Below are positions 274 to 42,665 of a DNA stretch of 64,000 nucleotides, in pieces. The number at the start of each line of letters is the position of its first letter. The first letter of the stretch is position 1. The stretch is taken from assembly GCA_009777155.1 (NCBI GenBank), contig WRMK01000001.1, forward strand, positions 1 through 64,000, read 5' to 3'. Source of the DNA: Oscillospiraceae bacterium (lineage in GTDB: Bacteria; Bacillota; Clostridia; Oscillospirales; Ruminococcaceae). The notes beneath the pieces are model-generated. The model saw nothing but the letters and a program-made list of their open reading frames with translations, made no database searches and was not told the origin of the DNA. The translations under genes were made by a program, and so were the position numbers.

Positions 274-2034
274 ATGAAACACACCCAAACAATCCATCTA
301 AACCAACTCGGCTACGCCCCGAACGCCGTTAAGAAGGCGGTCTTGCCTGTAGATGCAAGCGAGTTTTCAATTGTCTGCACTGTTGAAAACGCAGTTGTTT
401 TCAATGGCAAAGCCTCCGAAAAAGTCTACTCGGAGGGTTCGCGGGAGTGGGTGAGGATTGCCGACTTTACCGCTTTAACGCGGCAAGGCGAGTATGTGCT
501 GGTGGCGAAGTCGGGCGAATCGGCACAGTCGGCGCAATCGCCGCAGTCGTGCGAATTGGCGCAGTCGCCGCAGTCGTGCGAATCGCCGCAGTCGCCCGAA
601 ACGGCGCAGTCGCCCGAATCGGCACAGTCGCCGCAATCGCCGCAGTCGTGCGAATCACCGCAATCGGCGCGGTCGTGCGAATCGGCGCAATCGCCGCAAC
701 CGCCGCAGTCGTGCGAATCGCCGCAATTCAAAATCACCCCCACCCCCTACGCCGAACTCCGCCGCGCCTTGTTGGATTTTTACGAGTACCAAAAATGCGG
801 CGTTGCAGTTGACGCGGGGCCGTGGTCGCACCCGCCCTGCCATACCTCAATCGGCTTTGTAATCGACGAAAACGGCGCGAAAACCGGCGTGACGAAAGAC
901 GTTGCGGGGGGCTGGCACGATGCGGGCGATTACGGGCGGTACATAGTCCCGTCGGCGGCGACAGTCGCGCAGTTACTGCTTGCGAATAACCCCGACCTCC
1001 TCGACGTAGTATGGTTCGAGGTCGAGTGGATGCTGAAAATGCAGGACGAGGTCAGCGGCGGCATCTATCACAAGGTCAGTTGCCGCAATTTCAACCCGCT
1101 GAACGAAATGCCCCATGACGAGCATGACGAGTTGGTAATCTGCCCGATTTCAGCCGAGGCAACGGCCGATTTCGCCGCGTCTATGGCTTTGGCGGCGCGC
1201 TTTTACCCGCAGTATTCTCAAAAATTGCTCACATCGGCAACCTCGGCGTGGGATTGGTGCATGAAAAACTTGCACTTCGCCGAATCAAACAGCGGCTTCA
1301 AGAACCCGCCCACCGTCACAACAGGCCCGTACGGCAACACGAGCATCAAGAGCAAATACTTCTGGGCGGCGTGCGAGTTGTTTGGGGCTACGGGGGAACA
1401 GAAGTACCACGATTATATCAAGACCGCAGAGATTAGCGCGGGTGTACACTGGAAAGAGTCGGGGACTTTCGGGATTCTTGCCTATTTGCGGAGTGCCAAA
1501 GCCGATTCCGCAATCGCCGCCCGCATGAAAAAGACCCTTTTAGACAGGGCGGGCGAGATTATTACGGCCTGCAATGCCGACCCGTACGGGGTCTCGCTCG
1601 GCGTTGACTATAGGTGGGGTAGCAACGGCGACATCGGCAACAACGCCATGACCTTGCTACTCGCCGAGCAATTTGCCGACATTGCAAATAGTGCAAATAA
1701 ATACCGTGAATACGCGGCCGAACACCTGAATTATCTGCTGGGCAAGAACCCGCTCGGCAAGTGCTACGTCAGCGGATTCGGCGCAAACCCGCTCAAACAC
1801 CCGCACCATCGCCCGTCGGTGGCGGTGGGTGAGGCTGTACCCGGTATGGTGTCGGGCGGGCCGTGCGGCAACACAAGCTTCGAGCCGATTCTGCACAGCC
1901 ACTGCGCCAACCAACCCCCCATGAAGTGCTTCATCGACCACCACGAAAGTTTCTCGTCGAACGAGATAACTATATATTGGAACGCCCCATTCTATTTCTT
2001 GCTCTCCGAGCAAGAAATAATGAATAATGAATAG
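274..2034 (+). CDS. glycoside hydrolase family 9 (cellulase) with N-terminal Ig-like domain and a long Ser/Gln/Pro/Cys-rich insert
   Basis: QLGYxPxxxK N-terminus, GGWHDAGDYGRY, YLLGKNPLGKCYVSGFGANPLKHPHHRPS are GH9 hallmarks. Confidence 0.9.
   Translation: MKHTQTIHLNQLGYAPNAVKKAVLPVDASEFSIVCTVENAVVFNGKASEKVYSEGSREWVRIADFTALTRQGEYVLVAKSGESAQSAQSPQSCELAQSPQSCESPQSPETAQSPESAQSPQSPQSCESPQSARSCESAQSPQPPQSCESPQFKITPTPYAELRRALLDFYEYQKCGVAVDAGPWSHPPCHTSIGFVIDENGAKTGVTKDVAGGWHDAGDYGRYIVPSAATVAQLLLANNPDLLDVVWFEVEWMLKMQDEVSGGIYHKVSCRNFNPLNEMPHDEHDELVICPISAEATADFAASMALAARFYPQYSQKLLTSATSAWDWCMKNLHFAESNSGFKNPPTVTTGPYGNTSIKSKYFWAACELFGATGEQKYHDYIKTAEISAGVHWKESGTFGILAYLRSAKADSAIAARMKKTLLDRAGEIITACNADPYGVSLGVDYRWGSNGDIGNNAMTLLLAEQFADIANSANKYREYAAEHLNYLLGKNPLGKCYVSGFGANPLKHPHHRPSVAVGEAVPGMVSGGPCGNTSFEPILHSHCANQPPMKCFIDHHESFSSNEITIYWNAPFYFLLSEQEIMNNE
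507..732 (+). repeat. in-frame degenerate tandem repeat coding for (S)PQSCES/AQSPQS units inside the GH9 gene
   Basis: Repeated cagtcgccgcagtcgtgcgaatcg-like units. Confidence 0.9.
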
Positions 2035-2225
2035 TGAATAATGAATAATTGTGGAGGTCGCTCCGCGACGGTTTTCCGATTGAATAGCTTACAACTCGTA
2101 TGCAATCTTTTCACGATAATTAAACTAAATATCGCGAAAAATCGGTATACGAGTTGTCAGCTATTCAATCGGAAATCCGTCGCGGAGCGACACCTCAATT
2201 ATTCATTATTCCTTATTCACTATTA
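2016..2225. repeat. long inverted repeat bounded by GAATAAT/GAATAGT heptamers
   Basis: aataatgaataatgaatagtgaataatgaataattgtggaggtcgctccgcgacgg..attgaatagct.acaactcgtat mirrored by atacgagttgt.agctattcaat..ccgtcgcggagcgacacctcaattattcattattccttattcactatt. Confidence 0.9.
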
Positions 2226-3148
2226 CTTGAAACGCAGTTCCTCCCCGCGTTTTTCGCACTATAAAGTGCCTTATCCGCTCCGCCGATAAGTTCGTATACG
2301 GTCGTTTCGCCTTGCTCTTTTGTATCGGCCGCGTTTACACCTATGCTTATGGTAATTCTTGTGGGCGGTTGGTCGGGGTTGCAGATTTGTCGGATTGGAA
2401 CCTCCTCGACCTGCGCCCGCAACTGCTCCGCGACGCCTTTCGCGCCCTGTAGGTCAGTATTCGGCAACAGCACCACAAACTCCTCGCCGCCCCATCTCGC
2501 CGCAAAATCCCCCGACCGTTTCAGCACCTGCCGAAAGACTTCCGCAACGGTGCAAAGCGCGACGTCGCCCTGCTGATGCCCGTAGGTATCGTTGTAATGC
2601 TTGAAATTATCCACGTCAATCATCAACACACTTATCGGTATCTTCTCACGCTTGGCGCGCCGCCATTCCGAATTCATCTGTGTCTCGAAAAACCGCCGAT
2701 TGGGCAATTCGGTAAGGCGGTCGGTCATGCTCAGTCGTTCAATTATCCGCAGTTGCTCCAATATCATAATCTGATTACGCAGTCTAAGTTTAACAATCGC
2801 CGACGAAAACGGCTTGCTGATGTAATCCGCGGCCCCGAGCGACAACCCCTTTTCCTCGTCCTCGGAATTACGCAGGCCGGTGATGAAAATCACGGGTATG
2901 TCTTTCGTCAATTCGGTGCTTTTTAACACGGTGATAACTTCATAGCCGTCCATGTCGGGCATGATTATGTCGAGCAGAATCACGTCCGGCGCGTATTTCT
3001 CTGCCGCCGCAATCGCCGCCGCGCCGCTTTTCGCCGCATATGTAGTATACTCGCCGCTGAGTATTGAATTAAGCGCGATAATATTCGAGTTCTCGTCGTC
3101 CACAATCAAGACGGCGCGTTTTCTTGCGGATTCAATATTATTTGTCAT
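2213..3148 (-). CDS. response regulator with GGDEF domain (diguanylate cyclase)
   Basis: REC domain (LIVDDENSN, DVILLDIIMPDMDGYEV) and RWGGEEFVVLLP. Confidence 0.92.
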   Translation of the reverse strand: MTNNIESARKRAVLIVDDENSNIIALNSILSGEYTTYAAKSGAAAIAAAEKYAPDVILLDIIMPDMDGYEVITVLKSTELTKDIPVIFITGLRNSEDEEKGLSLGAADYISKPFSSAIVKLRLRNQIMILEQLRIIERLSMTDRLTELPNRRFFETQMNSEWRRAKREKIPISVLMIDVDNFKHYNDTYGHQQGDVALCTVAEVFRQVLKRSGDFAARWGGEEFVVLLPNTDLQGAKGVAEQLRAQVEEVPIRQICNPDQPPTRITISIGVNAADTKEQGETTVYELIGGADKALYSAKNAGRNCVSSNSE

Positions 3149-6100
3149 ACGTAATCCCCTTTAAGCTTATTTAGCTCGTCAACGGCTTCCTTAAATTCGT
3201 AGTTCTCAACCCGCGTAATCAGCACGTCCGCGCCCGGAACAGCCCGTAGTCGCTCGACAAGATTAAAGCTGTCGGGGTTAATATTCAACAGCAACGGCTC
3301 TAACTCGGCGAACAGCTCGGCAGTCTCGGACTTGGATAGCGGCCGAATATTTTCTTGCTGTGTCAATGCCGACTGCAACAGCGGCTCTAAGCCTTTGTGT
3401 ACCTCATCGAACGCGGTTTTGAGTTCACTCATTTTCTCAATCGGCGGCAATTCGTGCAACTTCAATAATCGTTCAACTTCCATTGCCGCGTTTTGCAGTT
3501 CGGGCTCGGCAATCTGCCCTGCGTTGCCTTTGAGAGTATGCGCCAATCGGTGGGCGAGGGTGAAGCTTTTGCCGTCAATAGCGGCCACGAGTTCATCGTA
3601 AGTCCCGCGGTTGTTCTTGGCGAACGCAATCCGCAGTTTCTCAAGGATTTCCGCCTTTTGCCGAAGTCGCTCGGCCTCGTCGTCGTCGCCCATGCTAATT
3701 GGAGTTAGGTACTTCAAGAGTATCAGCCACAATTCCTGCGCCGTGAACGGCTTTCCAAGGCAGTTCGGCATATTATTTTTGCGGTACTTCTCCAACTCGC
3801 CCGACATGACGTTTGCAGTCATGGCGACTATCGGCGTGCCTACGCCCAACTGGGTAATCCGCGACGCCGCCTCCATGCCGTCCATTACAGGCATGAACAT
3901 GTCCATGAAGATTAGGTCGAACGGCTTTTCGCCGTTTTCCATGCGTGTAATGACCGCCTCGAGGGCTTCCTTGCCGTTCTCGGTCTCGACCGACTGTAGC
4001 CCCACACGCGCCAAATGCTCGCATATAAGCTCACGGTTCATGAAATTATCGTCGCAAATCAGCACTAATTCTTGGTGAAAATTCGGCTTTTGAATCTTGT
4101 TCGCCTTTGACTTTTCGGGAGCATGGGATTCAGACTCGGTTGCGGCATTGGCAATGGTATCAAAATCAAGTTCAAAGCTGAACAGGCTGCCCGCGCCCGG
4201 CTCACTCACGACGTTCAGCTTGCCGCCCATGAGTTCAACCAAATTCGCGGTAATCGACAAGCCTAAGCCCGTGCCGCCGTAGTTGCGGGTCGTCCCCGAG
4301 TCCGCCTGCATGAACGGCTCGAAAATCCGCTCAATCTGCTTACTGTTCATACCTATGCCGTTGTCGCATACTTCAAAATAGACAATAGCCTTAGTGTCGC
4401 CCTGCTCGTCGGTCTTGATTGTCTTGACCACCGCCGATAGCTTTACCGAACCCATGTCGGTGAATTTCACCGCGTTCGACAACAGATTCATCAAGGCTTG
4501 ATAGAGCCGTACCGAGTCCCCGATAAGTTTCCGCCCCGCAATCGGTTCTGCATAGAGCCGCAAGTCCAATCCCTTTTCCTTAGCCGCCGGAAGTATCACC
4601 GACTGACACCGCGAGACGACTTCATGTAACTCAAACGGCGCATTATCGAAAGTCATCTTGCCCGCCTCGATTTTGGATATGTCAAGAATATCGTTGATTA
4701 TTCGGAGCAACCATTTTGCACTGTCGTTGATTTTGCCGAGGTAATCCTTGACTTGATAATCAATTGCGCGGTCAATCGCAAGCTCGGCAAATCCTAACAC
4801 GCTATTCATCGGGGTGCGAATTTCATGGCTCATTATCGCCAAAAACTCCGACTTGGCGCGGCTTGCGGCTTGTGCGGACTCGAGCAATCGCTGTTCGGTG
4901 ATGTCGCAGTAGTACCCTTCAACCAAGTGCGGCGTGCCGTCTGTTTTGGTCTCAATCACGCGGCTGCGCTCCCAGATAACCTTCTCGGTGCCGTCGGGAA
5001 CAGTAATCCTGTAGGTCGTCTCGTACGGCAGGCCTTTCGCGAGTGTCTGCTCGCTGATAATCATGACGTTTTCGGCGTCTTCAAGATTATTGATATTCAG
5101 ATACCGCACAGAGCTTTTCCCGATTAAATCCTCGGCGGCGTAGCCTATAAGCTCCTTTGAGCCCTTGCTTACGAAAGTATATGTATACTCGGGCGGGTCG
5201 TAAAGATGCTGAAACACCATGCCGGGCAGGTTGTCAATCATCGCTTCAATCCGCGCCGTCATGCTCTTGAGTTGGGTTAAATCCTGCACAGTCGAAAGGA
5301 GTACATTATCAAAGCCGTCCTTGTAATCGTCAATCCGCACAAGTGTCACCAAAACGGGGTGCGGAACCCCCAAAGTCGTCTGATACACCGCCTCAAAGCT
5401 ATTGTAACCCTTTTGGACGGCGACTTTTGCATACTTTTTAAGTTTCTCCAACGTATTTTCACCGTCGGGCTGTTTTTCGGGGAAGACTTTGTAATAATTA
5501 TCGAAAAACTCCTGCTTGGTCTTGCACCCCGAATGTTTGAAGGCGGTCTCGTTGCAGTCGATAACTGTTAAATCTTCCTTGATTAAAGCACAGACAATCG
5601 GGATTGCGTCGAGCATTGTCTTTATCCGCAGGTGTGTTTCCTCGGCGGCTTTTTCGGCGGTTTTGCGGACGGTAATATCGGTCGCAATGCCTAAAAGTCC
5701 GATTACGGTGTTGTTTTGGACAAGCGGCGTGCGGATAATCTGCATGGCTTTGCGGACACCGCCCGGGTAGGTATACCAGTTCTCGGTGACAATGGTCTCG
5801 CGTTCTTTCAAGACCCGCTGATTGCTCGCGTAGAACTCGGCGGGCGTGTTTTTATCGGTGGTGTACATTGCGTCATAATCCTGCCCGATTATGTCTTCCT
5901 TTGTCACGCCAAACTCCCGCTCGAAGGTACTGTTACAGCTTGTGTAGAGATTATTCAGGTCTTTAGTGAACACCAAAGCGGGAATCGAATTGTATATAGC
6001 GTGGAGCCGCGCCGTCTGCTCTGCCATGGCTTTGCGGGTTTTCAAAATCATCGTGTAGGACACCACAAGGATTGCAATAATCACAAAAAGCGCGATGAGT

Positions 6101-6225
6101 ACGCCGATGAACAGCGGGCGGTCATGGTGTTCGTGGTCGGTCATAACCACAGTAGCAGTCAGCGCAACCAAAATAACTATGACTGCCGCCACGGCGATGA
6201 ATAATAGCTTGTTAATACGATTCAT
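3145..6225 (-). CDS. hybrid sensor histidine kinase: TM segments, multiple PAS, HisKA (HEIRTPMNSVLG), HATPase, REC and Hpt domains
   Basis: HEIRTPMNSVLGF; GGTGLGLSI; DLIFMDMFMPVMDGMEA; AHTLKGNAGQ. Confidence 0.93.
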   Translation of the reverse strand: MNRINKLLFIAVAAVIVILVALTATVVMTDHEHHDRPLFIGVLIALFVIIAILVVSYTMILKTRKAMAEQTARLHAIYNSIPALVFTKDLNNLYTSCNSTFEREFGVTKEDIIGQDYDAMYTTDKNTPAEFYASNQRVLKERETIVTENWYTYPGGVRKAMQIIRTPLVQNNTVIGLLGIATDITVRKTAEKAAEETHLRIKTMLDAIPIVCALIKEDLTVIDCNETAFKHSGCKTKQEFFDNYYKVFPEKQPDGENTLEKLKKYAKVAVQKGYNSFEAVYQTTLGVPHPVLVTLVRIDDYKDGFDNVLLSTVQDLTQLKSMTARIEAMIDNLPGMVFQHLYDPPEYTYTFVSKGSKELIGYAAEDLIGKSSVRYLNINNLEDAENVMIISEQTLAKGLPYETTYRITVPDGTEKVIWERSRVIETKTDGTPHLVEGYYCDITEQRLLESAQAASRAKSEFLAIMSHEIRTPMNSVLGFAELAIDRAIDYQVKDYLGKINDSAKWLLRIINDILDISKIEAGKMTFDNAPFELHEVVSRCQSVILPAAKEKGLDLRLYAEPIAGRKLIGDSVRLYQALMNLLSNAVKFTDMGSVKLSAVVKTIKTDEQGDTKAIVYFEVCDNGIGMNSKQIERIFEPFMQADSGTTRNYGGTGLGLSITANLVELMGGKLNVVSEPGAGSLFSFELDFDTIANAATESESHAPEKSKANKIQKPNFHQELVLICDDNFMNRELICEHLARVGLQSVETENGKEALEAVITRMENGEKPFDLIFMDMFMPVMDGMEAASRITQLGVGTPIVAMTANVMSGELEKYRKNNMPNCLGKPFTAQELWLILLKYLTPISMGDDDEAERLRQKAEILEKLRIAFAKNNRGTYDELVAAIDGKSFTLAHRLAHTLKGNAGQIAEPELQNAAMEVERLLKLHELPPIEKMSELKTAFDEVHKGLEPLLQSALTQQENIRPLSKSETAELFAELEPLLLNINPDSFNLVERLRAVPGADVLITRVENYEFKEAVDELNKLKGDYV

Positions 6226-6243
6226 AGTGTGTCCCTTCAGAAT

Positions 6244-6275
6244 AATGCAGAATGCAGAATGCAGAATGCAGAAAT
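6244..6275. repeat. solo (GCAGAAT)n heptamer end
   Basis: aatgcagaatgcagaatgcagaatgcagaaat. Confidence 0.85.
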
Positions 6276-6310
6276 AGTTTGGATTTAATTAGCGGAGCAG
6301 TTGTTTGGGG

Positions 6311-6575
6311 GCAGTGGGGGTGCAGGGGTCTATGTCTGCGACACCGCAAAGAATCCGTGCGCCCGCGGCAGAGACCGTTCAGCCCACGCAACATCGACAA
6401 TGAGTGTTCCACTTGGCGGCTTGTGGGTTCGCTGTGCATAAGAAGTCTGCCCCCGAAAGGGGTTCTTCCGTCTACAAAATTTTTGGGACGAGAGGGTTAT
6501 GTTTCGCCAAGTGCAAGGGCGGGTCGCGCGGTTTCTTTGAGGTGGCGCAGACATAGACCCCTGCACCCCTACTGC
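6311..6575 (-). repeat. long-stem repeat element, copy A
   Basis: Arms gcagtgggggtgcaggggtctatgtctgcgacaccgcaaagaatccgtgcg / imperfect reverse complement ending cctgcacccctactgc; core resembles copy C on the opposite strand. Confidence 0.85.
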
Positions 6576-12650: not shown

Positions 12651-12939
12651 GCGGTGTGTCGGCAGGGGGCAGGGGGTCTATGTCCGCGCCGAGTGCGGTT
12701 TCGCAGGCCCGCGTTTGCGATTGATAAAGTTTAACTTTCTCGAGCCGAACCGTTATCAGATAGCACAAACCCTATGCGAGTACGGACTTTTCAAGTAGAT
12801 AAAACCTATTAAGTCGTGAACTTATAAGTTTGCAATCGAGGAAGTGGGGCTTAAACAGTCTGTGTGTGCGGGCGGTGCAATGCACGCGACACCGCACTCG
12901 GCGCGGACATAGACCCCCTGCCCCCTGCCGACACACCGC
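12651..12939 (+). repeat. long-stem repeat element, copy B
   Basis: Perfect 49-bp inverted repeat: 12651-12699 gcggtgtgtcggcagggggcagggggtctatgtccgcgccgagtgcggt vs 12891-12939. Confidence 0.95.
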
Positions 12940-12955: not shown

Positions 12956-13660
12956 CTATTCAATATAGGCGAGTAAAACTTTTTCAGCCGTGGGTGCATT
13001 TTCGTGGCATATGAGGTAGGCGTAGCCGTTCTTGTTGCCCACTTTCATGGCGTCGGCGGCGGTTTGCTGTAGCGGGTAGAAGGCCAACTCGTCTTTGAGT
13101 TTCGACTGCCGTGTCCGCAGAAAGTCCATAATGGCGTTCAGCTCGCCCGGTTGCGGTCTGATTACGATGATTTCCGCTAAATGCACTGTCAGAGCCTGTT
13201 GGTAGCAGGCGATTTCGGCTATGGCTTCAAAGTCAATCCCGGGTACGAAGACCTCGATGTCGTCTTGAGTTTCGTGCCGGGTCATGACGGGGAAGTCTAC
13301 ACTTTCTAAGATAATCTGCGCTAATTCGGCAGCTGTAAAGCTTTGTGGGTTGTCGGGGTTTTGCGGTGTAAATTCAGATGAGTTGTCAGAATTTGGGTCT
13401 GTAAAGCCGCTTGGGTTGTCGGATTCGGGGTCTGTAAAGCTATTTGGGTTGTCGGGATTTTGGGGTGTAAACTCGGACGAGTTGTCGGGGTTTTGTGGTG
13501 TAAAGTTGCTTGGGTTGTCAGGGTCGGAAGCTGTAAACCCCGACGAGTTGTCATCGTCAACGGACGGTGATTTCGCCCCGCAACTTGATAATATTGCGAC
13601 AATAACCAAGATACTTATTATTTTTACAACTAATTTCAACATAAACGCCAGTTCTCCCAC
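12956..13660 (-). CDS. secreted/lipoprotein with 11-aa tandem repeats and C-terminal DUF4358-like domain
   Basis: Lipobox-like IVAILSSCGAK; six FTPQNPDNSSE-like repeats; C-terminal ECF-regulated lipoprotein-type domain. Confidence 0.65.
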   Translation of the reverse strand: MGELAFMLKLVVKIISILVIVAILSSCGAKSPSVDDDNSSGFTASDPDNPSNFTPQNPDNSSEFTPQNPDNPNSFTDPESDNPSGFTDPNSDNSSEFTPQNPDNPQSFTAAELAQIILESVDFPVMTRHETQDDIEVFVPGIDFEAIAEIACYQQALTVHLAEIIVIRPQPGELNAIMDFLRTRQSKLKDELAFYPLQQTAADAMKVGNKNGYAYLICHENAPTAEKVLLAYIE

Positions 13661-16592: not shown

Positions 16593-17924
16593 ATGCAATT
16601 CCCCGAAAACGTCAACCAAATAATAACCACCCTCGAGACCGCCGGCTTTGAAGCCTACGCGGTCGGCGGCTGTGTGCGGGATATGCTGGCAGGGGCAGAA
16701 CCGCCCGACTACGACATCGCCACAAGCGCAGTTCCCGATGAAATCAAGCAGGTTTTCAGCGACTGCAAAACCATAGATATAGGTGCAAAACACGGCACGA
16801 TTGCCTTGATTACAGACACCTCCAAAATCGAAATCACCACCTTCCGCACCGACGGCGACTACAGCGACAGCCGCCGCCCCGACTCGGTGACCTTCACACG
16901 CGACTTGAAGTCCGATTTGGCGCGGCGCGACTTCACCGTCAACGCCATGGCCTACTCCGACAAGACCGGCCTGATTGACCTGTTCGGCGGCGAAAGTGAC
17001 TTGGGGCGCGGGATTCTGCGCTGTGTCGGCGAGCCGGAGAAACGCTTTACCGAAGATGCACTGCGGATTATGCGCGGTTTGCGGTTCATGGCGGAGCGCG
17101 GATTTTCATGTGAGCCCAAAACAGGAACAGCACTGCTCAAACTCAAAGACCGCCTGAATTTAATCGCTCCCGAAAGAATCCGCGCCGAGTTCGACCGAAT
17201 GTTGATGGGGCGTTATACCGAGAGTATAATTTTGCAGTATTATGACGTTTTGGGGGTCTTTGTGCCGGAAATACTCGCCTGTGTGAACTTCAATCAGCGC
17301 AATAATTACCACATCTACGACGTCCTAACCCATACTGCGAAGACAATCGCCGCGATTCCGCCGCTGCCCGAAAATCGGCTGCCCCGAATCGCGATGTTCT
17401 TCCACGATATTGCCAAGCCCGAGTGTTACCGGCTCGTGAATAACAGCGGCAGTTTCAAGGGCCACGCCGAGCGTAGCGCGGAGATTGCGCGGCGGGTAAT
17501 GCGCCGTTTGCGGTACGACAACGCCGCGATTGACCGCGTGAAACTGCTGGTTAAGCACCACGACGAGGAATTTTCGAGCGATGATGTAAGTGTCAAGAAA
17601 CTGCTGTGCAAATTTGGATTGGAGACAATCGAGCAGCTTTGCACGGTGAAAAAAGCCGACGACAGCGCGAAAGCCGACTTCGTAAAAACACAGCGGCAAT
17701 CGCAGTATATCTTAGCCGACAAAGCCCGCGCAATCATAGCCCGCGGCGACTGCTACTCCCTCGCACAGTTGGCAATCAACGGCGCGGATTTGCTCGAAGC
17801 GGGTTACAAAGGCGCACAAATCGGCGAAAAATTGCGGGAATTGTTACTGCTTGTGATTGAGGGGAAACTTGAAAACGACAAAACCGTTTTAATGCAGAAT
17901 GCAGAATGCAGAATGCAGAAATAA
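16593..17924 (+). CDS. cca: CCA tRNA nucleotidyltransferase with HD domain
   Basis: AYAVGGCVRDMLAGAEPPDYDIATSA; RRDFTVNAMAY; HDIAKPECY. Confidence 0.9.
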   Translation: MQFPENVNQIITTLETAGFEAYAVGGCVRDMLAGAEPPDYDIATSAVPDEIKQVFSDCKTIDIGAKHGTIALITDTSKIEITTFRTDGDYSDSRRPDSVTFTRDLKSDLARRDFTVNAMAYSDKTGLIDLFGGESDLGRGILRCVGEPEKRFTEDALRIMRGLRFMAERGFSCEPKTGTALLKLKDRLNLIAPERIRAEFDRMLMGRYTESIILQYYDVLGVFVPEILACVNFNQRNNYHIYDVLTHTAKTIAAIPPLPENRLPRIAMFFHDIAKPECYRLVNNSGSFKGHAERSAEIARRVMRRLRYDNAAIDRVKLLVKHHDEEFSSDDVSVKKLLCKFGLETIEQLCTVKKADDSAKADFVKTQRQSQYILADKARAIIARGDCYSLAQLAINGADLLEAGYKGAQIGEKLRELLLLVIEGKLENDKTVLMQNAECRMQK

Positions 17925-18006
17925 CTTGATTATCAGGTTGTTTGCCGACGGATATGTGGGTTGTAATTATATTTATTTCTGCATTCTGCATTATTATTTC
18001 TGCATT
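17891..18006. repeat. (GCAGAAT)n-bounded inverted-repeat element
   Basis: aatgcagaatgcagaatgcagaatgcagaaat ... atttctgcattctgcattattatttctgcatt. Confidence 0.9.
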
Positions 18007-19147: not shown

Positions 19148-20257
19148 ATGTTAGAATACGATGAAATCCGTGCGGAACTCACCGCCATGAAGCCCGAAAT
19201 AGCCGAACTTTCCGAGGCGTTGGGTTTGAAGCGGCTCGAAAAAGAAATAGCCGAGCTTGAGGAACTTTCGATGTCGCCCGATTTCTGGAGCGACACCGAA
19301 AACGCGCGGCTTGTCAACCAAAAATCGGGTGCAATGAAGAACACCCGCGACGCTTTCCTGCGGCTCAAAGCCGATTACGAGGACGTCGTCACCATGGTTG
19401 AGCTTGCCGAGGAGGACGGCGATATTTCGCTCGTCGCGGAAATCAAAGAGACCGCGGCGAAAGTCAAGGCCGAGCTTGACAAGCAGAAGATGACGACCCT
19501 GCTCTCGGGCGAGTACGACGGCAAAAACGCCATACTCGCTCTGCACGCGGGCGCAGGCGGCACCGAGGCCATGGACTGGGTCGAAATGCTCTACCGCATG
19601 TTCACGCGGTGGGCGGAGCGGCACGATTTCAAGGTCGTTTTGCTCGACTATTTGGACGGCGAAGAAGCGGGGATAAAGTCGGCATCGGTGCTGATTCAGG
19701 GGCAGAACGCCTACGGCTTGTTGAAGTCGGAGCATGGGGTTCACAGGCTTGTCAGAATCTCGCCGTTTGATTCTTCGGGGCGGCGGCACACGAGCTTTGC
19801 CAGTCTCGAAGTTATGCCCGAAATTGATGAAGATGTGGCGATTGAAATACGAGACGAGGACATAGATTTCGAGGTCTACAGAGCGAGCGGCGCGGGTGGG
19901 CAAAAGGTCAACAAAACCAGCTCGGCAGTGCGAATTACCCACAAGCCGACCGGCATTGTCTGCGCCTGCCAAACACAGCGCAGTCAACTGCAAAACCGCG
20001 AATACGCCATGCGTATGCTCAAGTCAAAATTGATTGAAATTAAAGAGCGCGAACATCTCGAAAAAATCTCCGACATCAAAGGTGAGCAGTTGCAAATCGC
20101 GTGGGGCGCGCAGATTCGCTCCTACGTTTTCATGCCGTACACGATGGCGAAAGACCACCGAACCGGCTTCGAGGTAGGCAACATAAACGCAGTCATGGAC
20201 GGGGATTTGGACGGGTTCATTAATGCTTATTTGAAGGCGAAAGCAATGCAGAAATAA
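19148..20257 (+). CDS. prfB: peptide chain release factor 2, continuous reading frame (no programmed frameshift seen)
   Basis: SPF tripeptide anticodon motif (ISPFDSSGRRHTSFAS) and GGQ (RASGAGGQKVNKTSSAVRI). Confidence 0.92.
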   Translation: MLEYDEIRAELTAMKPEIAELSEALGLKRLEKEIAELEELSMSPDFWSDTENARLVNQKSGAMKNTRDAFLRLKADYEDVVTMVELAEEDGDISLVAEIKETAAKVKAELDKQKMTTLLSGEYDGKNAILALHAGAGGTEAMDWVEMLYRMFTRWAERHDFKVVLLDYLDGEEAGIKSASVLIQGQNAYGLLKSEHGVHRLVRISPFDSSGRRHTSFASLEVMPEIDEDVAIEIRDEDIDFEVYRASGAGGQKVNKTSSAVRITHKPTGIVCACQTQRSQLQNREYAMRMLKSKLIEIKEREHLEKISDIKGEQLQIAWGAQIRSYVFMPYTMAKDHRTGFEVGNINAVMDGDLDGFINAYLKAKAMQK

Positions 20258-20397
20258 GAATGCAGAATGCAGAAATAATTAAATTTATCTGTTGTCCCCA
20301 ACAGCCATGCGCGTTGTAATTTATATAATTATACGGTCGATTTCCGTCGGAAAACGGCTTGAAAATTAAATTATTTCTGCATTCTGCATTCTGCATT
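20245..20397. repeat. (GCAGAAT)n-bounded inverted-repeat element
   Basis: aatgcagaaataagaatgcagaatgcagaaataatt ... atttctgcattctgcattctgcatt. Confidence 0.9.
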
Positions 20398-20425
20398 CTC
20401 ATTTATTTACGGGGGTGGAACTAAA

Positions 20426-21529
20426 ATTTACGACATTGCAATAATCGGTCTCGGCCCTGCCGGCTCGACTTTGGCGCGGTATCTGCCGCCGGGATTTAGG
20501 GTGATTGCGCTTGATAAAAAGTCCGCTGATACTGATACTGACTGCGATTGCGCCGACACCGACAACGGCTTCCGCAAGCCTTGCGGCGGTCTGCTTGCGC
20601 CGGACGCGCAAAAGGCTTTGGCGAGTTTTGGACTTACTTTGTCCAAAAATATTTTGGTGAACCCGCAGATTTTCAGCGTTCGTGTGATTGACACGAGCCG
20701 TTCGGGAAAACCGCTCGTGGGGCATTACCAGCGGTTTTACATCAACATTGACAGGCATAAGTTTGACCTGTGGTTACGGTCGCTGATACCCGAAAATGTT
20801 GAGGTCGTGGGCGGCTGTGTGGTTGTTGCGGTTGAGAAAGTCGGCGAGTTTTGGCGGGTTGTTTACAGCCGTAACGGCGAGAGCAAAACCGTGACGGCAC
20901 GGTATATTGTAGGTGCGGACGGCGCGAAATCGATAGTGCGAAACGCGGTATTTCCGCGCAAAAAAATCAAGACCTACCTTTCGATTCAGGAGTGGTTTAA
21001 GGCGGAAAATTCCTGCCCGTATTACTACAGCATTTTCGACTCGAAGCTGACCGACTGCTACGCGTGGGGGTTGTCGAAAGACGATTGTTTCATACTCGGC
21101 GGCGGTTTTACCCCGCAGAACGCCCGCCGAAATTTCGATGAATTGAAGCAAAAACTCACCCGCGATTACGGCGGATTGGGCGTTGACTTGAACGCGCCGA
21201 TTAAGACGACCGCCTGCCTCGTTCTGCGCCCGTCAAGCCCGTTGCAATTCTGCACCGCGAAAAATAACGCCTTTCTGATAGGCGAGGCGGCGGGGTTCAT
21301 CAGCCCGAGTTCGCTCGAGGGCATAAGTTACGCAATGCAGAGTGCAAGCCTGCTTGCGGGGGTTTTCGCGGGTAAAAAAACTTGCAATTATGCAAAAAAG
21401 TACACCGGCGCAACACGCGGCATAAGGTTCAAGCTGACCTTGAAACTTCTGAAATGCCCGTTCATGTATCAGCCGTTTTTGCGTAGAATAGTGATGAAAA
21501 GTGGACTTCGGCAGCTAATGCAGAAATGA
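20426..21529 (+). CDS. FAD-dependent oxidoreductase / geranylgeranyl reductase-like; probable AUU start upstream of the ORF-track start
   Basis: In-frame IYDIAIIGLGPAGSTLARYL (Rossmann GxGPAGS) lies upstream of TTG 20471; frame open from 20363 with no ATG/GTG/TTG. Confidence 0.75.
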   Translation: MYDIAIIGLGPAGSTLARYLPPGFRVIALDKKSADTDTDCDCADTDNGFRKPCGGLLAPDAQKALASFGLTLSKNILVNPQIFSVRVIDTSRSGKPLVGHYQRFYINIDRHKFDLWLRSLIPENVEVVGGCVVVAVEKVGEFWRVVYSRNGESKTVTARYIVGADGAKSIVRNAVFPRKKIKTYLSIQEWFKAENSCPYYYSIFDSKLTDCYAWGLSKDDCFILGGGFTPQNARRNFDELKQKLTRDYGGLGVDLNAPIKTTACLVLRPSSPLQFCTAKNNAFLIGEAAGFISPSSLEGISYAMQSASLLAGVFAGKKTCNYAKKYTGATRGIRFKLTLKLLKCPFMYQPFLRRIVMKSGLRQLMQK

Positions 21530-21701
21530 GAATGCAGAAACTATTTCTAATGCAGAAATGAGAATGCAGAATGCAGAAATAATTTCATTTTAAAGTTTTT
21601 TCCAACAGCCATGCGCCTTGAAATTTATACAATTATACGGTCGATTTCCGACGGAAATAAACGTTGTAATTTGCTTATTTCTGCATTCTGCATTCTGCAT
21701 T
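21517..21701. repeat. (GCAGAAT)n-bounded inverted-repeat element with duplicated left end
   Basis: aatgcagaaatgagaatgcagaaactatttctaatgcagaaatgagaatgcagaatgcagaaat...atttctgcattctgcattctgcatt. Confidence 0.9.
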
Positions 21702-21728
21702 TTTATTTATTAAAAGGGGGAAATTAAA

Positions 21729-26226: not shown

Positions 26227-26334
26227 AATGCAGAAATGAGAATGCAGAATGCAGAAATAATTTATTTTTCAAGCCGTTTTCCGACGGAAATAAACGTTGT
26301 AATTTGCTTATTTCTGCATTTTGCATTCTGCATT
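26227..26334. repeat. (GCAGAAT)n-bounded inverted-repeat element
   Basis: aatgcagaaatgagaatgcagaatgcagaaat ... atttctgcattttgcattctgcatt. Confidence 0.9.
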
Positions 26335-26367
26335 ATCATTTATTTATAAAGGAAGGGGTAAACTGCT

Positions 26368-27876
26368 ATGGCTTACTTTACCAACGATGTCTCCCGCACA
26401 TTCGGCGAGTATCTGATTATTCCGGGGTATTCCTCGGCGAACTGCATACCGTCCGATGTCTCGCTCAAAACCCCGCTTGTTAAGTTTAAGAGGGGTGAAA
26501 GTCCTCACGTTTCCTTGAATGTTCCGCTCACCTCAGCGATTATGCAATCGGTATCAGACGACAACATGGCGGTTGCACTTGCGCGGGAAGGCGGGATTTC
26601 GTTTATTTTCGGCTCACAGTCGATTGAGGACGAGGCGGGAATGGTCGCCAAGGTAAAGGGCTACAAGGCGGGCTATGTCGTGAGCAATTCCAATCTGCGC
26701 CCCGATATGACGCTGCAAGATGTCCTGCGATTGAAAGAGCGCACCGGCCATTCCACGATGGCGGTGACAAAGGACGGCACGGAACATTCTGAGCTTTTGG
26801 GAATTGTCACGGGGCGGGATTACAGGGTCTCGCGTATGAACGGAAACGAGGCTGTGAGCAGTTTTATGACACCTTTCGACAAGCTGATTACTGCCCCTGC
26901 CGATATTTCGTTGTCCGAGGCCAATGACATTATTTGGGAGCACAAGCTTAACGCCTTACCGTTGATTGATAATAACAAAAAGTTGGTTTTCTTTGTATTT
27001 CGTAAGGATTACGAGGTGCATAAGGAAAACGCGAACGAGCTTTTGGACGACAACAAGCGGTATATAGTCGGCGCCGGGATTAACACTCGCGACTATACCG
27101 AGCGTGTCCCCGCCCTCGTAAAGGCAGGCGCAGACGTGCTTTGCATCGACAGCTCCGAGGGGTACACCGAGTGGCAAAAATTAACAATCGCCTACATTCG
27201 CAAGGAATATGGCGAGGAGGTCAAGGTCGGCGCGGGGAACGTGGTTGACAAGGAGGGATTCCTGTATTTGGCGAATGCGGGCGCGGATTTCGTCAAGGTC
27301 GGCATTGGCGGCGGCGCGATTTGCATTACACGTGAGCAAAAAGGCATCGGCAGGGGGCAAGCCAGCGCGGTAATCGAGGTTGCCGAGGCGCGCAATAAAT
27401 ACTTTGAGGAGACCGGAATTTACATCCCGATTTGCTCCGACGGCGGGATTGTCCACGATTATCACATTACGCTTGCATTGGCTATGGGAGCGGATTTCGT
27501 AATGCTCGGGCGGTATTTCGCGAGGTTCGATGAGGCCCCCGGAAACAAGGTCATGATGGGCGGGAATTACGTCAAGGAATACTGGGGCGAGGGCACAAAC
27601 CGCGCCCGCAACTGGCAGCGGTACGAGACCGACGGCAGCGGGCGGCTCTCGTTCGAGGAGGGCGTGGACAGCTATGTGCCGTACGCCGGCCCGCTCAAGG
27701 ACAACGTAACCCGCTCGTTGTCTAAGGTACGGAGCACTATGTGCAATTGCGGGGCGATGTCGATTCCCGACCTGCAAAAGAACGCAAAACTCACCCTCGT
27801 CTCGTCTACGGGGATAATTGAGGGCGGTTCGCATGATGTTATTTTGAAGGAGGCTATGCGGGGGGTTAATCAATAA
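26368..27876 (+). CDS. guaB: IMP dehydrogenase (with CBS domains)
   Basis: [55 protein letters not shown]. Confidence 0.92.
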
Positions 27877-27900
27877 TTGATAATTGACAATGGATAATTG
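27872..27900. repeat. heptamer array ataattg/acaatgg beginning at the guaB stop codon
   Basis: aataattgataattgacaatggataattg. Confidence 0.8.
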
Positions 27901-35237: not shown

Positions 35238-36581
35238 ATGAAACTTTGGAAAGGTCGATTCGCAAAAGAAATTGATAGTAAAGTTAACGATTTTAATTCG
35301 TCGATTGCCTTTGATTGCAGAATGTTTCGTGAGGATATTGAGGTAAGTTTGGCGCACGCCGAAATGCTCGGCAAAACCGGGATAATCCCGCAAAGTGACA
35401 GCGAAAAAATTGTCGCCGAGCTTCAGAAAATCCGCGCCGAAATTGACAACGGCGAGTTGTTATTTGATTACGAAGCCGAGGATATTCACACTTTTATTGA
35501 AGCCGAATTGACAAAGCGAATCGGCGATGCGGGCAAAAAATTGCACACCGCTCGTTCGCGAAACGACCAAGTCGCGACGGGATTGCGGCTGTATCTGCGG
35601 CGCGAAATCAGCGCGGTGCAAGACCTGCTGATTGCTTTGGTAGACACGCTTTGCAAGACTGCAAACCCGCATTTCGACACGATTATGCCCGGTTACACAC
35701 ATTTGCAACGAGCGCAACCGGTCACTTTCGGGCATCATTTAATGGCGTACGTCATGATGTTTTCGAGGGATATTGCCCGACTCCGAGACGCGAAAACTCG
35801 CATGGACGAATTCTGCCCGCTTGGGAGCGGCGCACTCGCCGGCACGACTTACCCGATTGACAGAAAACTAACTGCCCAGAGGCTCGGATTTTTCGGTGAC
35901 GCCGAACTTACAAACTCCATCGACGGCGTGTCCGACCGCGATTTTTGCTTGGAAATTGCAAGCGGCTTATCAATAATAATGGTGCATTTGTCGCGGTTTT
36001 CGGAGGAGATAATTCTGTGGTGTTCGCAAGAATTTAACTTCATCGAACTCGACGACGCCTACTCGACAGGCTCAAGCATTATGCCGCAGAAAAAAAACCC
36101 CGACGTCGCAGAACTTGTCCGCGGAAAAGCCGGCCGAGTTTTCGGGAGCAATATCGCGTTGCTGACTGTGATGAAAGGCCTTCCGCTTGCCTATAATAAG
36201 GATATGCAGGAGGACAAGGAAGCGATTTTCGACGCGATTGACACCGTGAAACTTTGTCTGGAAGTTTTCGCCCCAATGATTCACACCATGAAAATTAACA
36301 AGGAAACTATGCAATTTGCCGCGACTTCGGGCTTTCTGAACGCGACCGATTGCGCCGATTATCTCGTGAAAAAAGGCATGCCGTTTCGCGATGCTTACAG
36401 GATTACGGGCGAGTTGGTGGCGGTTTGTATCGAGAAAAAGACAGGTTTGGAAAACTTGCCGCTTGAAGAATTTAAGGTCAAGTGCGAGTTGTTCGGCGAG
36501 GATATTTTCACGGCTTTGAAGTTGGAAAATTGCGTGCATAACAGGAACTGCGAGGGTGCGCCGGGGCGGCGGGGGCGGTAG
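35238..36581 (+). CDS. argH: argininosuccinate lyase
   Basis: MKLWKGRFAKEIDSKVNDFNSSI; SSIMPQKKNPDVAELVRGKAGRVFG. Confidence 0.95.
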   Translation: MKLWKGRFAKEIDSKVNDFNSSIAFDCRMFREDIEVSLAHAEMLGKTGIIPQSDSEKIVAELQKIRAEIDNGELLFDYEAEDIHTFIEAELTKRIGDAGKKLHTARSRNDQVATGLRLYLRREISAVQDLLIALVDTLCKTANPHFDTIMPGYTHLQRAQPVTFGHHLMAYVMMFSRDIARLRDAKTRMDEFCPLGSGALAGTTYPIDRKLTAQRLGFFGDAELTNSIDGVSDRDFCLEIASGLSIIMVHLSRFSEEIILWCSQEFNFIELDDAYSTGSSIMPQKKNPDVAELVRGKAGRVFGSNIALLTVMKGLPLAYNKDMQEDKEAIFDAIDTVKLCLEVFAPMIHTMKINKETMQFAATSGFLNATDCADYLVKKGMPFRDAYRITGELVAVCIEKKTGLENLPLEEFKVKCELFGEDIFTALKLENCVHNRNCEGAPGRRGR

Positions 36582-36840
36582 GTGTACGGGGGTCTATGTC
36601 TGCGACACTGCAAGAATCGCACGACCCGCGCTTGCACTTGTTGAAGCATAACTTTCTCGTCCCCAAGACTTTGTAGATAGAAGAAACTTTAGTGCGTATA
36701 GACTTTTTAATTATTGCGAACCCACAAGTCGCCAAGGGGATAAGTCTCATATCGAGAAAGCGGAATATGAGAGGTTTGTGTGGCGGGCGTGCGATTCTTT
36801 CAGTGTCGCAGACATAGACCCCCGTACACCTACCGCCCCC
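36571..36840 (+). repeat. long-stem repeat element, copy C
   Basis: 53-bp arms with one mismatch: gggggcggtaggtgtacgggggtctatgtctgcgacactgcaagaatcgcacg vs 36788-36840. Confidence 0.95.
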
Positions 36841-37293: not shown

Positions 37294-38199
37294 ATGAGAG
37301 TATTTATTGATGGCGAGTCGGGTACAGTTGGGCTTAATATTCGTGAAAGGTTAAATAAATACACCGATATTGAGCTGCTCAAAATCGACCCCGAACTGAG
37401 CGAAAATGCAGACGAGCGCAAGAAATTTCTGAACCGAGCGGACATTGCGTTTTTGTGCTTACCGGACGAAATTGCAAAGGAATCGGTTGCGCTGATTGAC
37501 AGCACGGGGAATATTACAACCCGCATAATCGACGCGTCAACAGCCCACAGAACCCACCCCGACTGGACTTACGGCTTCCCTGAATTGTCAAAAGCGCATG
37601 AGGAGCAAATTCGCACTTCTAAGCGCGTTGCAACGCCGGGGTGCTATGCGAGCGGCTTTATCGCGTTGGTCTACCCGCTTGTTTCGGGCGGTTTGCTAAG
37701 TGCGGATTCGTTGATAAGTTGTTTCGGGATTTCAGGGTACAGCGGCGCGGGTAAGGCGTTCATTGACGAGTATCAGGGTGACTTAATGACAAGGAATCCC
37801 GAACTCGCAAGCGCGAGATTGTACGCTCTTGCACAGTCGCACAAGCACCAACCCGAAATGCGCGCGGTCTGCGGATTGACTTACGACCCGATGTTCAATC
37901 CCGTGATTGATGATTACTACAGCGGAATGATTGTCAATATCCCGCTTATGAAGCCGAATTTTACTGCTTGTGATGTTCGGGAATTGTACAAAAAACACTA
38001 CTCGGGAACTCGCGTTGAGCTTAAAAACAGCGACGTAACTTTCCTCGCCGCGAATACTTTAGCAGGCTCGGACGGCATGGAGCTGTACGTTTTCAGCGAC
38101 CCGAACAGTGAACGGATTCTGCTGAGTGCAAGGTTCGATAATCTCGGCAAAGGGGCGAGTGGTGCGGCAGTACAGTGCTTTGAGATAATGCAGAAATAA
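37294..38199 (+). CDS. argC: N-acetyl-gamma-glutamyl-phosphate reductase
   Basis: FIDGESGTVGLNIRERL; ATPGCYASGFIALVYPLVSGGL. Confidence 0.93.
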   Translation: MRVFIDGESGTVGLNIRERLNKYTDIELLKIDPELSENADERKKFLNRADIAFLCLPDEIAKESVALIDSTGNITTRIIDASTAHRTHPDWTYGFPELSKAHEEQIRTSKRVATPGCYASGFIALVYPLVSGGLLSADSLISCFGISGYSGAGKAFIDEYQGDLMTRNPELASARLYALAQSHKHQPEMRAVCGLTYDPMFNPVIDDYYSGMIVNIPLMKPNFTACDVRELYKKHYSGTRVELKNSDVTFLAANTLAGSDGMELYVFSDPNSERILLSARFDNLGKGASGAAVQCFEIMQK

Positions 38200-38631
38200 A
38201 AATGCAGAATGCAGAAATGGGTTAGATTATGAAAGAAAATATAATTCTTGAAAAAACTATGAACTTTTCTGTTAGGATTATCAACTTGTACAAATACCTA
38301 TGTTCAGAAAAAAACGAATATATAATGTCAAAGCAATTGTTGCGATGCGGAACGAGTATTGGAGCAAATGCCCATGAAGCCCATAACGGGCAATCGAGCA
38401 GAGACTTTTTGTCTAAAATGTATGTTGCTTTGAAAGAGGCTTCCGAAACTGAATATTGGTTGAAATTGCTCACAAAAACAGACTATTTAACCGAAAAACA
38501 AGGTGAAAATATATTATATGATTGCGTGGAAATCAAAAAGATTCTCACGTCGATAATAAAGACAACGAAATCAAATATATAAGGGGGTTTGTAGGGATAA
38601 TTTCTGCATTCTGCATTATTATTTCTGCATT
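38187..38631 (+). mobile_element. (GCAGAAT)n-bounded inverted-repeat element carrying a four-helix-bundle protein gene
   Basis: Left aatgcagaaataaaaatgcagaatgcagaaat; right end reverse complement aatgcagaaataataatgcagaatgcagaaat (31/32 match). Confidence 0.75.
38229..38582 (+). CDS. four helix bundle protein (23S rRNA intervening-sequence / S23-type)
   Basis: SKQLLRCGTSIGANAHEAHNGQSSRDFLSKMYVALKEASETEYWLKLL is the family signature. Confidence 0.88.
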   Translation: MKENIILEKTMNFSVRIINLYKYLCSEKNEYIMSKQLLRCGTSIGANAHEAHNGQSSRDFLSKMYVALKEASETEYWLKLLTKTDYLTEKQGENILYDCVEIKKILTSIIKTTKSNI

Positions 38632-38638
38632 AAATGAA

Positions 38639-39877
38639 ATGATTGAGTTTGAAGGCTTCACGCCCGTATACGGCGGCGTTTGCGCCGCGCAAGGCTTCAC
38701 AGCCGGGAGCGTTCGCGCGGGCATTAAGGCAGGTAGCGGCAAGGACGACCTCGCCATGATTTATTGCGTGAAAAAATGCACGGCGGCGGCGGTTTACACC
38801 CAAAACGTCGTAAAAGGCGCGCCGATAATCGTCACACAGCGGCACTTGCAAGACGGCTTTGCACAGGCAGTTGTCGTCAATTCGGGCAACGCAAACACCT
38901 GCAATTCAAACGGCGTGGAAATTGCCGAACTGATGTGCAACTTGACCGCCGAGAACTTAAAACTCGACCCGCAAGACGTGATTGTCGCGTCAACCGGCGT
39001 AATCGGGCAGAAACTTTCGGCGGAAATTTTCGAGCAGAACATACCCTTGTTGTCTTGTTGTTTGAGCGAAGTTGGCAGTACCGATGCTTGCAAGGCGATT
39101 ATGACTACCGACACGCGGCTGAAAGAATTCGCGTTCGAGTTTGAAATTGGCGGCAAAACTTGCAGTATCGGCGGCATTTCCAAGGGTAGCGGCATGATAA
39201 ATCCTGCAATGGCGACACTGCTTTGTTTCATCACAACCGATGTCAACATATCCGCCGAAATGCTCCAAAAAGCCTTAAATGAAGCCAACATCGACTCCTA
39301 CAGCAGGGTTAATATAGACGGAGATACATCCACCAACGACATGGCGTGCATACTCGCATCGGGCATGGCGGGCAACGCCGAAATCACTGATGCCAATGAG
39401 GATTACGCGGTTTTCCTTGACGGGCTTTGCGCGGTTATGGTTAACTTAGCGCGCGAGACTGCGCGTGACGGCGAAGGCGCGACAAAGCTAATCGAGTGCC
39501 TTGTCAAAAACGCGCCAAGTCTGCAAGCCGCCGAGTTAATTTCGCGCTCGGTCATTTCGTCAAGCCTTGTTAAAGCGGCAGTTTTCGCCGCCGATGCAAA
39601 CTGGGGCAGAATCTTATGTGCGGCGGGGTATTCGGGCGCAGATTTCGACCCGCTGAAAGTTTCGGTGAAAATGCTATCCGCAAATGGCGAGGTGCTTGTA
39701 TGTCAAAACGGTGTCGGTGTTGATTACTGTGAGGAGGCGGCGCATGAGGTTTTGTCGGCTGACGAGGTTGTAATTGTCATTGATTTGCAGGGCGATAATC
39801 CCGATAACCAAGCCATCGCTTGGGGTTGCGATTTGACTTATGATTATGTGAAAATTAACGCGGAGTACAGGACTTAA
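38639..39877 (+). CDS. argJ: bifunctional glutamate N-acetyltransferase / amino-acid acetyltransferase
   Basis: GFTAGSVRAGIK; VVNSGNANTCN; VASTGVIGQKLSAEIFEQNIPLL; NIDGDTSTNDMACILAS. Confidence 0.93.
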   Translation: MIEFEGFTPVYGGVCAAQGFTAGSVRAGIKAGSGKDDLAMIYCVKKCTAAAVYTQNVVKGAPIIVTQRHLQDGFAQAVVVNSGNANTCNSNGVEIAELMCNLTAENLKLDPQDVIVASTGVIGQKLSAEIFEQNIPLLSCCLSEVGSTDACKAIMTTDTRLKEFAFEFEIGGKTCSIGGISKGSGMINPAMATLLCFITTDVNISAEMLQKALNEANIDSYSRVNIDGDTSTNDMACILASGMAGNAEITDANEDYAVFLDGLCAVMVNLARETARDGEGATKLIECLVKNAPSLQAAELISRSVISSSLVKAAVFAADANWGRILCAAGYSGADFDPLKVSVKMLSANGEVLVCQNGVGVDYCEEAAHEVLSADEVVIVIDLQGDNPDNQAIAWGCDLTYDYVKINAEYRT

Positions 39878-40762: not shown

Positions 40763-41922
40763 ATACAATTCAGAAATATGACACTTATGTCATGAAATCT
40801 TACGGGCGGGTGCCGCTTGCTGTGGAGACGGCGGCGGGTACAAGCGCGGTCGGCGAGGGCGGCAAAACTTATATCGACTTCGGGTCGGGCATAGGTACAA
40901 ACTCGCTCGGGTACTGCGATGCAGACTGGGTTAACGCGGTCTGTAAGCAGGTGCAAACTTTGCAGCACAACTCGAATTATTACTACAACAAACCCGGCGC
41001 GGAATTTGCAGAAAAACTTGCAAAACTCACCGGTTACACCAACATGTTTTTCGGCAATAGCGGCGCGGAAGCCAACGAGTGCGCCATTAAACTTGCACGG
41101 AAATACAGCTTCGACAAATACGGCAAAAACCGCCATAATATTATCGCGCTGAAAGGTTCATTTCACGGCAGGACTTTAGCGACACTTTCGGCGACAGGGC
41201 AAGCCGATATGCACAACTACTTTTTCCCGTTCGTGCAAGGATTCATTCACGCCGAGCCTAATGACACGGCTGACTTAGCCGCGAAACTTGACGATTCTGT
41301 TTGCGCTATTATGCTCGAATACATTCAAGGCGAGGGCGGCGTAGTCGAGCTTGAAAAGGCGTATGTAGACGAGGTTTACAGGCTTGCCGCCGAGAAAGAT
41401 GTGCTTGTAATTGCCGACGAAGTGCAAACAGGTGCAGGGCGTACGGGTAAGTTTTTGGCGGGTGAGCATTTTAATAAAAAAGCCGACATTACTACTATGG
41501 CAAAAGGCCTTTTCGGTGGGCTTCCGGCGGGGGTTTGCCTTGCGAATGAGAAATGCGCCGACGTATTCACCGCGGGCACTCACGGCTCTACTTTCGGCGG
41601 GAATCCGGTGGTTCTAAGCGGCGGCTTGGTGGTACTTGACAAAGTTTCCGACCCCGCTTTCTTAGCCGAAGTCGTGAAAAAAGGCGAGTATATCCGCGAG
41701 AAATTGTCGGGGCTTGACGAGGTCGTTGCGATTAGCGGAAAAGGCTTGATGCTTGGAATCACGCTGAAAAATAAAAAGGCAGTGGACGTCATGAAAGCCG
41801 CACTCGAAAAGGGTTTGCTGGCATTGACCGCGAAAGAAAAACTGCGGCTTTTGCCGCCGCTTGTGATTGATTATAAGAGCCTTGATTTGGGGTTGGGGGT
41901 TATTGGGGAGATATTATTATGA
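40759..41922 (+). CDS. argD: acetylornithine aminotransferase
   Basis: MFFGNSGAEANECAIKLARKY; VLVIADEVQTGAGRTGKF; TTMAKGLFGGLPAGV. Confidence 0.94.
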   Translation: MNTIQKYDTYVMKSYGRVPLAVETAAGTSAVGEGGKTYIDFGSGIGTNSLGYCDADWVNAVCKQVQTLQHNSNYYYNKPGAEFAEKLAKLTGYTNMFFGNSGAEANECAIKLARKYSFDKYGKNRHNIIALKGSFHGRTLATLSATGQADMHNYFFPFVQGFIHAEPNDTADLAAKLDDSVCAIMLEYIQGEGGVVELEKAYVDEVYRLAAEKDVLVIADEVQTGAGRTGKFLAGEHFNKKADITTMAKGLFGGLPAGVCLANEKCADVFTAGTHGSTFGGNPVVLSGGLVVLDKVSDPAFLAEVVKKGEYIREKLSGLDEVVAISGKGLMLGITLKNKKAVDVMKAALEKGLLALTAKEKLRLLPPLVIDYKSLDLGLGVIGEILL

Positions 41923-42200
41923 TGTATCCGTATATTACTTTAGCAGATGAAACTTTAGTTACACATTCTCACCTCAAAGAGGAGAACGAGTTGAAGTCTG
42001 TGAACGTCCACTTTGAACGCCCGAAGCCTCACGGCTTTGATTCCGCGAGAATAAGTCTGCCGTCATATGCGTGGATAATGAGAGACGGCTTTACGGACGA
42101 GGAAATTAGAGACTTTGAAGCCTTTGCAAGCAATAATGCCCACCTACTCTTTAAGTATGCGGAAAAAGGGGGGCTTGGTATTGCGAAACTCGCCGTTTAG
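41919..42200 (+). CDS. hypothetical protein (93 aa), translationally coupled to argD
   Basis: ATG overlaps the argD stop; C-terminus encoded by a gcgaaactc palindromic repeat. Confidence 0.55.
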   Translation: MMYPYITLADETLVTHSHLKEENELKSVNVHFERPKPHGFDSARISLPSYAWIMRDGFTDEEIRDFEAFASNNAHLLFKYAEKGGLGIAKLAV

Positions 42201-42304: not shown

Positions 42305-42314
42305 GGACTTAGTG

Positions 42315-42577: not shown

Positions 42578-42665
42578 GACTGCTCCCCACACTCGCAAAA
42601 ATTTTGCTGTATGTAGTGGGTTTCGCAATCACCTATATTGTTAATAAGATGGGAGAATATTTAGC

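Follow-up and report, generated by a model that had tools for sequence, protein, structure and literature searches.

MITEs and repeats of the Correia and RUP types are short, have inverted ends, reach high copy number and lie between genes. To our knowledge, what the S23p/IVP protein and the rRNA intervening sequences do, and whether they are mobile, has been an open question since about 1990. In Coxiella burnetii the 23S rRNA intervening sequence (IVS) has tandem heptamers, GACAGAT, ahead of its S23p ORF and is excised by RNase III (PMC4990558). Tandem heptamers of another sequence, TAACTGA, occur in marine Beggiatoaceae and cyanobacteria (PMC4679880), and PF05635 homology has been reported for the Avd protein of diversity-generating retroelements (PMC10053308). 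In the open-access literature, the closest published parallels found are the IVS analogy and the heptamers of Beggiatoaceae (PMC4679880); no paper found there connects IVP genes in general with stop codons or inverted heptamer arrays.

The elements described here come from the window, the whole 64-kb stretch of DNA that was analysed, and from the genome to which it belongs. They share with the IVS of C. burnetii (PMC4990558) an IVP/S23p ORF (PF05635), stem-forming terminal inverted repeats and tandem heptamers before the ORF, but they lie at the stop codons of protein operons, number hundreds of copies and mostly lack an ORF. Because all copies in the window are located between protein genes and none in a 23S rRNA helix, they are called only IVS-like. 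As in the TAACTGA repeats (PMC4679880), the heptamers are tandem, lie in spacers, can overlap the end of an ORF and offer stops in all frames, whereas the TAACTGA repeats are found mostly just before start codons, in a single orientation, and no inverted pair or IVP is reported for them. Like MITEs and Correia or RUP repeats, the elements are short, multi-copy and intergenic with terminal inverted repeats, but their ends are period-7 arrays, they are placed at stop codons, and no transposase parent was found in the 59% of the genome that was examined. They are also short palindromic intergenic repeats like REP/BIME sequences; the GTAG hairpin that marks the latter is absent from the arms and core of the main family, and the genome's own REP-like family is separate and not stop-proximal. 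Avd retroelements differ in that the reverse transcriptase domain PF00078 was not found in this genome.

Ten stop codons inside repeat ends had been listed in a preliminary description of the window, and all ten positions and C-terminal peptides match the sequence. Elements with heptamer arms account for seven of the ten (Table 1). Four stops, those of cca, prfB, the FAD oxidoreductase gene and argC, belong to the AATGCAG family (HEPT1), whose arms at these genes consist of AATGCAG and AAATAAT units; two, those of the GH9 and GGDEF genes, are in the two arms of a single element of the GAATAAT family (HEPT2); and one, that of guaB, belongs to the ATTGACA/ATTGATA family (HEPT3). The exceptions are argH, orf 41919-42200 and the CPBP gene. 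The argH stop is in a long-stem element, which is probably coincidence, since the long-stem family is not enriched at stops; the other two are in or near other repeats, which were either not evaluated as families for stop enrichment or not enriched.

Table 1. Repeat elements, arms and the IVP reading frame in the window, with the gene ends that they touch
Feature	Position	Strand	Remarks
HEPT1 element, 116 bp	17891..18006	+	left arm supplies cca stop TAA 17922-17924
HEPT1 element, 160 bp	20245..20404	+	outer unit ATG CAG AAA TAA terminates prfB (20257)
HEPT1 element, left arm duplicated, 192 bp	21517..21708	+	supplies FAD oxidoreductase stop TGA 21527-21529
HEPT1 element upstream of guaB	26227..26341		right arm ~26 nt from guaB ATG; contains no gene end
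HEPT1 element, 445 bp, between argC and argJ	38187..38631	+	left arm supplies argC stop 38197-38199
117-aa ORF within the 38187..38631 element	38229..38582	+	23S_rRNA_IVP / four-helix bundle, PF05635
Lone AATGCAG arm, four units	6242..6279	+	adjoins long-stem element; faces start of minus-strand gene 3145-6225
HEPT2 element	2016..2227		GH9 stop 2032-2034 in one arm; GGDEF stop 2213-2215 (minus strand) in the other
HEPT3 tract ATTGATA/ATTGACA/ATGGATA	27872..27900	+	at guaB stop 27874-27876
Long-stem element	36571..36840		overlaps argH stop

The source genome comprises 2.36 Mb in 209 contigs, of which 1.40 Mb (59%) was examined with gene models built from hexamer coding potential (1235 genes). 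The sequence AATGCAGAATGCAGAAATAA, allowing up to two mismatches, has 255 matches in the genome, and its reversed control none. Within the 1.40 Mb lie 178 AATGCAG arms, 78 of which face the 3' end of a gene; 47 of these contain the stop, 26 begin 1-15 nt after it and 5 lie farther off, and the distance d from an arm to the stop that it faces is between -41 and +15 in 73/78. Values of d are quantised by frame, with 26 arms at -1/-2, where a T followed by AATGCAG reads TAA, 11 at -13 (ATG CAG AAA TAA), 6 between -34 and -41, and 26 from +1 to +15; they correspond to one arm read in three frames, together with copies just past an intact stop. A stop lies within -45 to +15 nt of 73/78 3'-facing arms of HEPT1 (94%), 30/32 of HEPT2 (94%) and 56/70 of HEPT3 (80%), as against 52/231 (22%) for REP-like repeats and 5/18 (28%) for long-stem edges in the same genome, whose median distances from the stop are +72 and +71 nt, respectively (Fisher p versus REP-like: 2.6e-30, 2.5e-15 and 4e-18 for the three heptamer families). 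Because the REP-like and long-stem repeats of the same genome are not enriched, placement at stops is a property of heptamer-armed elements and not of repeats generally. The association of repeats with stops set out in the preliminary description is upheld, far beyond chance, by the genome-wide distances, this within-genome control and the congener null considered below; it is much stronger genome-wide than the window could reveal, and repeat ends do re-create stops. Its attribution of the effect to several unrelated repeat families was mistaken, the effect being confined to the heptamer-armed elements.

The paired HEPT1 copies, 66 in number, have arms that enclose mostly 102-219 bp, with a modal length of 116 bp, and share an invariant centre, CCGACGGA. 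As RNA, HEPT1 elements fold into a long hairpin (z about -8.8); the predicted energies are -48.5 kcal/mol for the element at cca (z -8.8), the right arm of which ends ~20 nt ahead of the next gene, and -59.4 kcal/mol for that at prfB (z -8.8). The copy between argC and argJ encloses the sole PF05635 gene of the genome (E 1.7e-27 against PF05635 and 6e-41 against PDB 2rld), and the other HEPT1 copies are non-coding. The arms of the AATGCAG family vary so little that no covariation was seen within it. AATGCAG elements are absent from 24 congeners, one near-match excepted.

PF05635 is present in 85/292 genomes of the class. From named genomes spanning Clostridia, Bacteroidetes, Planctomycetes and others, 80 IVP loci were taken, 68 of them with both flanks. 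The closest relative, from an Oscillospiraceae MAG (L213), has the same AATGCAG arms. The median period-7 score of the 68 loci is 18 upstream and 19 downstream (of 21), compared with a median of 10 and a 95th percentile of 13 for ordinary DNA of IVP loci; a clear period-7 array lies upstream of the IVP gene in 65/68, and the inverted-repeat score of the flanks is 19.5 versus 8 for mismatched flank pairs. The heptamer varies among genomes, mostly in the frame AAT[TG]NNN, yet upstream and downstream heptamers agree to within 2 nt in 50/55 loci; complementarity is therefore kept while the sequence changes between lineages. The gene upstream is co-directional in 63/68 loci, and the arm abuts or overlaps its stop (d -51 to +6) in 49/69, a count in which arm edges are fuzzy by a few nt and a few loci are near-duplicates, where uniform placement in the spacers of these loci predicts ~5%. 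The heptamer read inward contains a stop in 46/65 cases, versus 22/65 when reversed (p 8e-6); the AAT[TG]NNN frame alone predicts 57% and 40%, and the comparison weakly supports selection of heptamers to hold a stop. Since about one third of the inward-read heptamers have none, the unit need not supply a stop.

Taken alone, an in-arm stop is weak evidence, because insertion would leave one in any gene that it truncated, and comparison with orthologues was therefore needed. By prfB, the nearest of the sampled congeners (G072, 78% DNA identity) had no abundant repeats in the 800 kb that were read. In 33 orthologue pairs, counted by hand from alignments after exclusion of three poor ones, the present stop and that of the orthologue are no more than two codons apart in 23 and no more than three in 27; all nine usable cases with d of -2 keep to the two-codon limit. 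The prfB product ends here in LKAKAMQK and in relatives in LKAKSLEKSFGK; the FAD oxidoreductase is ~10 residues shorter than its G072 orthologue; argC ends in CFEIMQK with the element between it and the next gene, where relatives have CFEIMKT or similar and the next gene usually close behind; and guaB of G072 ends one residue past the same Asn. The exceptions prfB and the FAD oxidoreductase gene show tails replaced by element sequence. The question raised in the preliminary description, whether orthologues without repeats have identical tails, thus receives a divided answer: they do where the arm starts just past the stop, and they do not for prfB, the FAD oxidoreductase gene and argC, in which the last residues are element-encoded. 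That most of the ancestral stops are at the arm or within two codons of it favours stop-proximal insertion, although selection acting in short operon spacers could contribute.

The architecture, the positional bias, the agreement with orthologue stops and the presence across phyla are the observations to be explained, and the elements probably belong with the 23S rRNA IVSs as one kind of small mobile element, here resident in protein operons. Each ends in inverted arrays of a 7-nt unit, and its interior is an IVP gene (S23p, four-helix bundle) or, mostly, a short palindromic non-coding core, MITE-like in character; transposition itself, processing of the RNA and a part for IVP in mobility are what we infer from this. 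The elements take up the short spacer that runs from the upstream gene's stop codon to the following ribosome binding site. Seven and three share no factor, so that a unit with a single stop yields stops in every frame; with TAA or TGA in the arms, a ribosome that reads into one is halted within ~14 codons whatever its frame. When an element inserts at the stop or a few codons ahead of it, the protein thus keeps its full length and only a short tail is changed; the arithmetic of the unit would thus make insertion tolerable. The arms pair in RNA as a long hairpin, a possible RNase III substrate, which could be cut as in the 23S IVS of Coxiella.

The tolerance of the arms might by itself suffice, if insertion is indifferent in transcribed DNA and copies last only in spacers or last codons where translation again meets a stop in the arm and the following ribosome binding site is left intact. 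This account has a substantial, though less than even, chance of being right. In-arm stops occur in all three frames, both in this genome and in Ruminococcus albus 8; the arm lies 10-30 nt from a start in 54/89 cases, sparing the binding site; and several genes tolerate C-terminal loss or gain, a few having gained or lost about 6-18 residues relative to their orthologues. The REP-like and long-stem repeats, however, are under the same selection and are not stop-proximal. Moreover, in 29 syntenic spacers compared with and without an element, the empty spacer has a median of ~33 nt; random TA insertion into the G072 syntenic spacers predicts a median of 152 nt against the 33 nt observed, and d of 15 or less in 26% against 16/17 observed (both on a small sample). 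Even with congener spacers of 60-190 nt, the arm is still no more than 9 nt from the stop. The within-genome contrast and the nearness of arms to stops despite long congener spacers would lean towards insertion directed to stops rather than survival there.

The arrays might instead have evolved in place at the ends and starts of genes, as sites with a regulatory or terminator-like function, and not be the ends of mobile elements. R. albus 8 has 265 matches to an AATTCAT array, with 16/18 sampled arms within -45 to +15 of a stop and tails such as IHNS. Between it and a close relative (L293-L322 versus L333-L348) the arms are at the same stops, the interiors are replaced and the number of units varies, as fixed sites would have it; no fresh insertion or excision (clean empty sites) was found in the relative, the arms being shared. 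The TAACTGA heptamers of Beggiatoaceae have likewise been proposed as regulator sites (PMC4679880). Against this stand the inverted pairing round a common core, the species-specific heptamers, the IVP cargo gene and the lack of arrays, one near-match apart, in the 24 congeners, so that evolution in place seems unlikely. With insertion of mobile elements as the preferred reading, the comparison with the relative means that arms can outlast turnover of the inside.

A derivative of a TA-targeting DNA transposon (Tc1/mariner/IS630-like) would insert at TA within a TAA or TAG stop, duplicate the TA and regenerate TAA. A T precedes AATGCAG in 137/177 arms, 24 stops at -2 read T followed by AA, and TAG and TGA are among the orthologous stops at -2 sites. 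But a TA flanks both ends no more often than expected of independent ends, no target-site duplication longer than 2 bp was found, and a duplicated TA is indistinguishable from the element ends. In the 59% of the genome examined, no transposase ORF was seen between paired arms, only IVP, which is no transposase, and the ends of IVP elements elsewhere are different; such an origin is accordingly quite improbable. Chance overlap of AT-rich repeats with stops, to which a compact, very repeat-rich genome with short spacers might lend itself, has practically no standing, being refuted by the within-genome control of heptamer-armed against REP-like and long-stem repeats (p down to 1e-30), with replication in other genomes.

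A broader generalisation is offered tentatively and may well prove wrong: IVP-heptamer elements might form a class of mobile elements, widespread and so far undescribed, that reside in operons and prefer to insert at stops in sense orientation, possibly coupled to transcription or RNA and with IVP serving for mobility; the classic 23S rRNA IVS would then be one special landing site and the hundreds of heptamer MITEs derivatives. IVP genes within inverted heptamer arrays at operon stops, in several phyla, provide a defined element with boundaries and an insertion rule to test, and its MITE-like relatives run to hundreds of copies. Many annotated proteins, with tails in MQK or IHNS, end in repeat-element sequence, and the heptamer tracts of many draft genomes may share one explanation.

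Several minor features were noted. Downstream of the IVP element, argJ has no clear ribosome binding site (window 38600-38660); several relatives have one within the short argC-argJ gap. Whole AATGCAG elements occur in tandem with a 108-bp period at L058:8395-9760. Some REP or long-stem arrays elsewhere (L096, L042, L044, L045 and others) have a single heptamer arm at one end, next to a ribosome binding site, and such single-arm arrays are composite elements. Long-stem elements lie at 6311-6575, 12651-12939, 36571-36840, 42311-42581 and 49769-50023 of the window; they have a common core of ~150-200 nt and arms of ~50 bp that differ among copies and are 86-98% complementary within a copy. REP-like hairpins beginning GTAGGG (GTAGGGGCGGGC.., GTAGGGAACGGTT..) are found at 14164, 16391, 16124, 28003 and 28316 and are very abundant, with 611 matches across 1.4 Mb. 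Tandem repeats of 9, 33 and 66 nt, coding or near-coding, occupy 477-737, 13324-13554 and 48041-48514.
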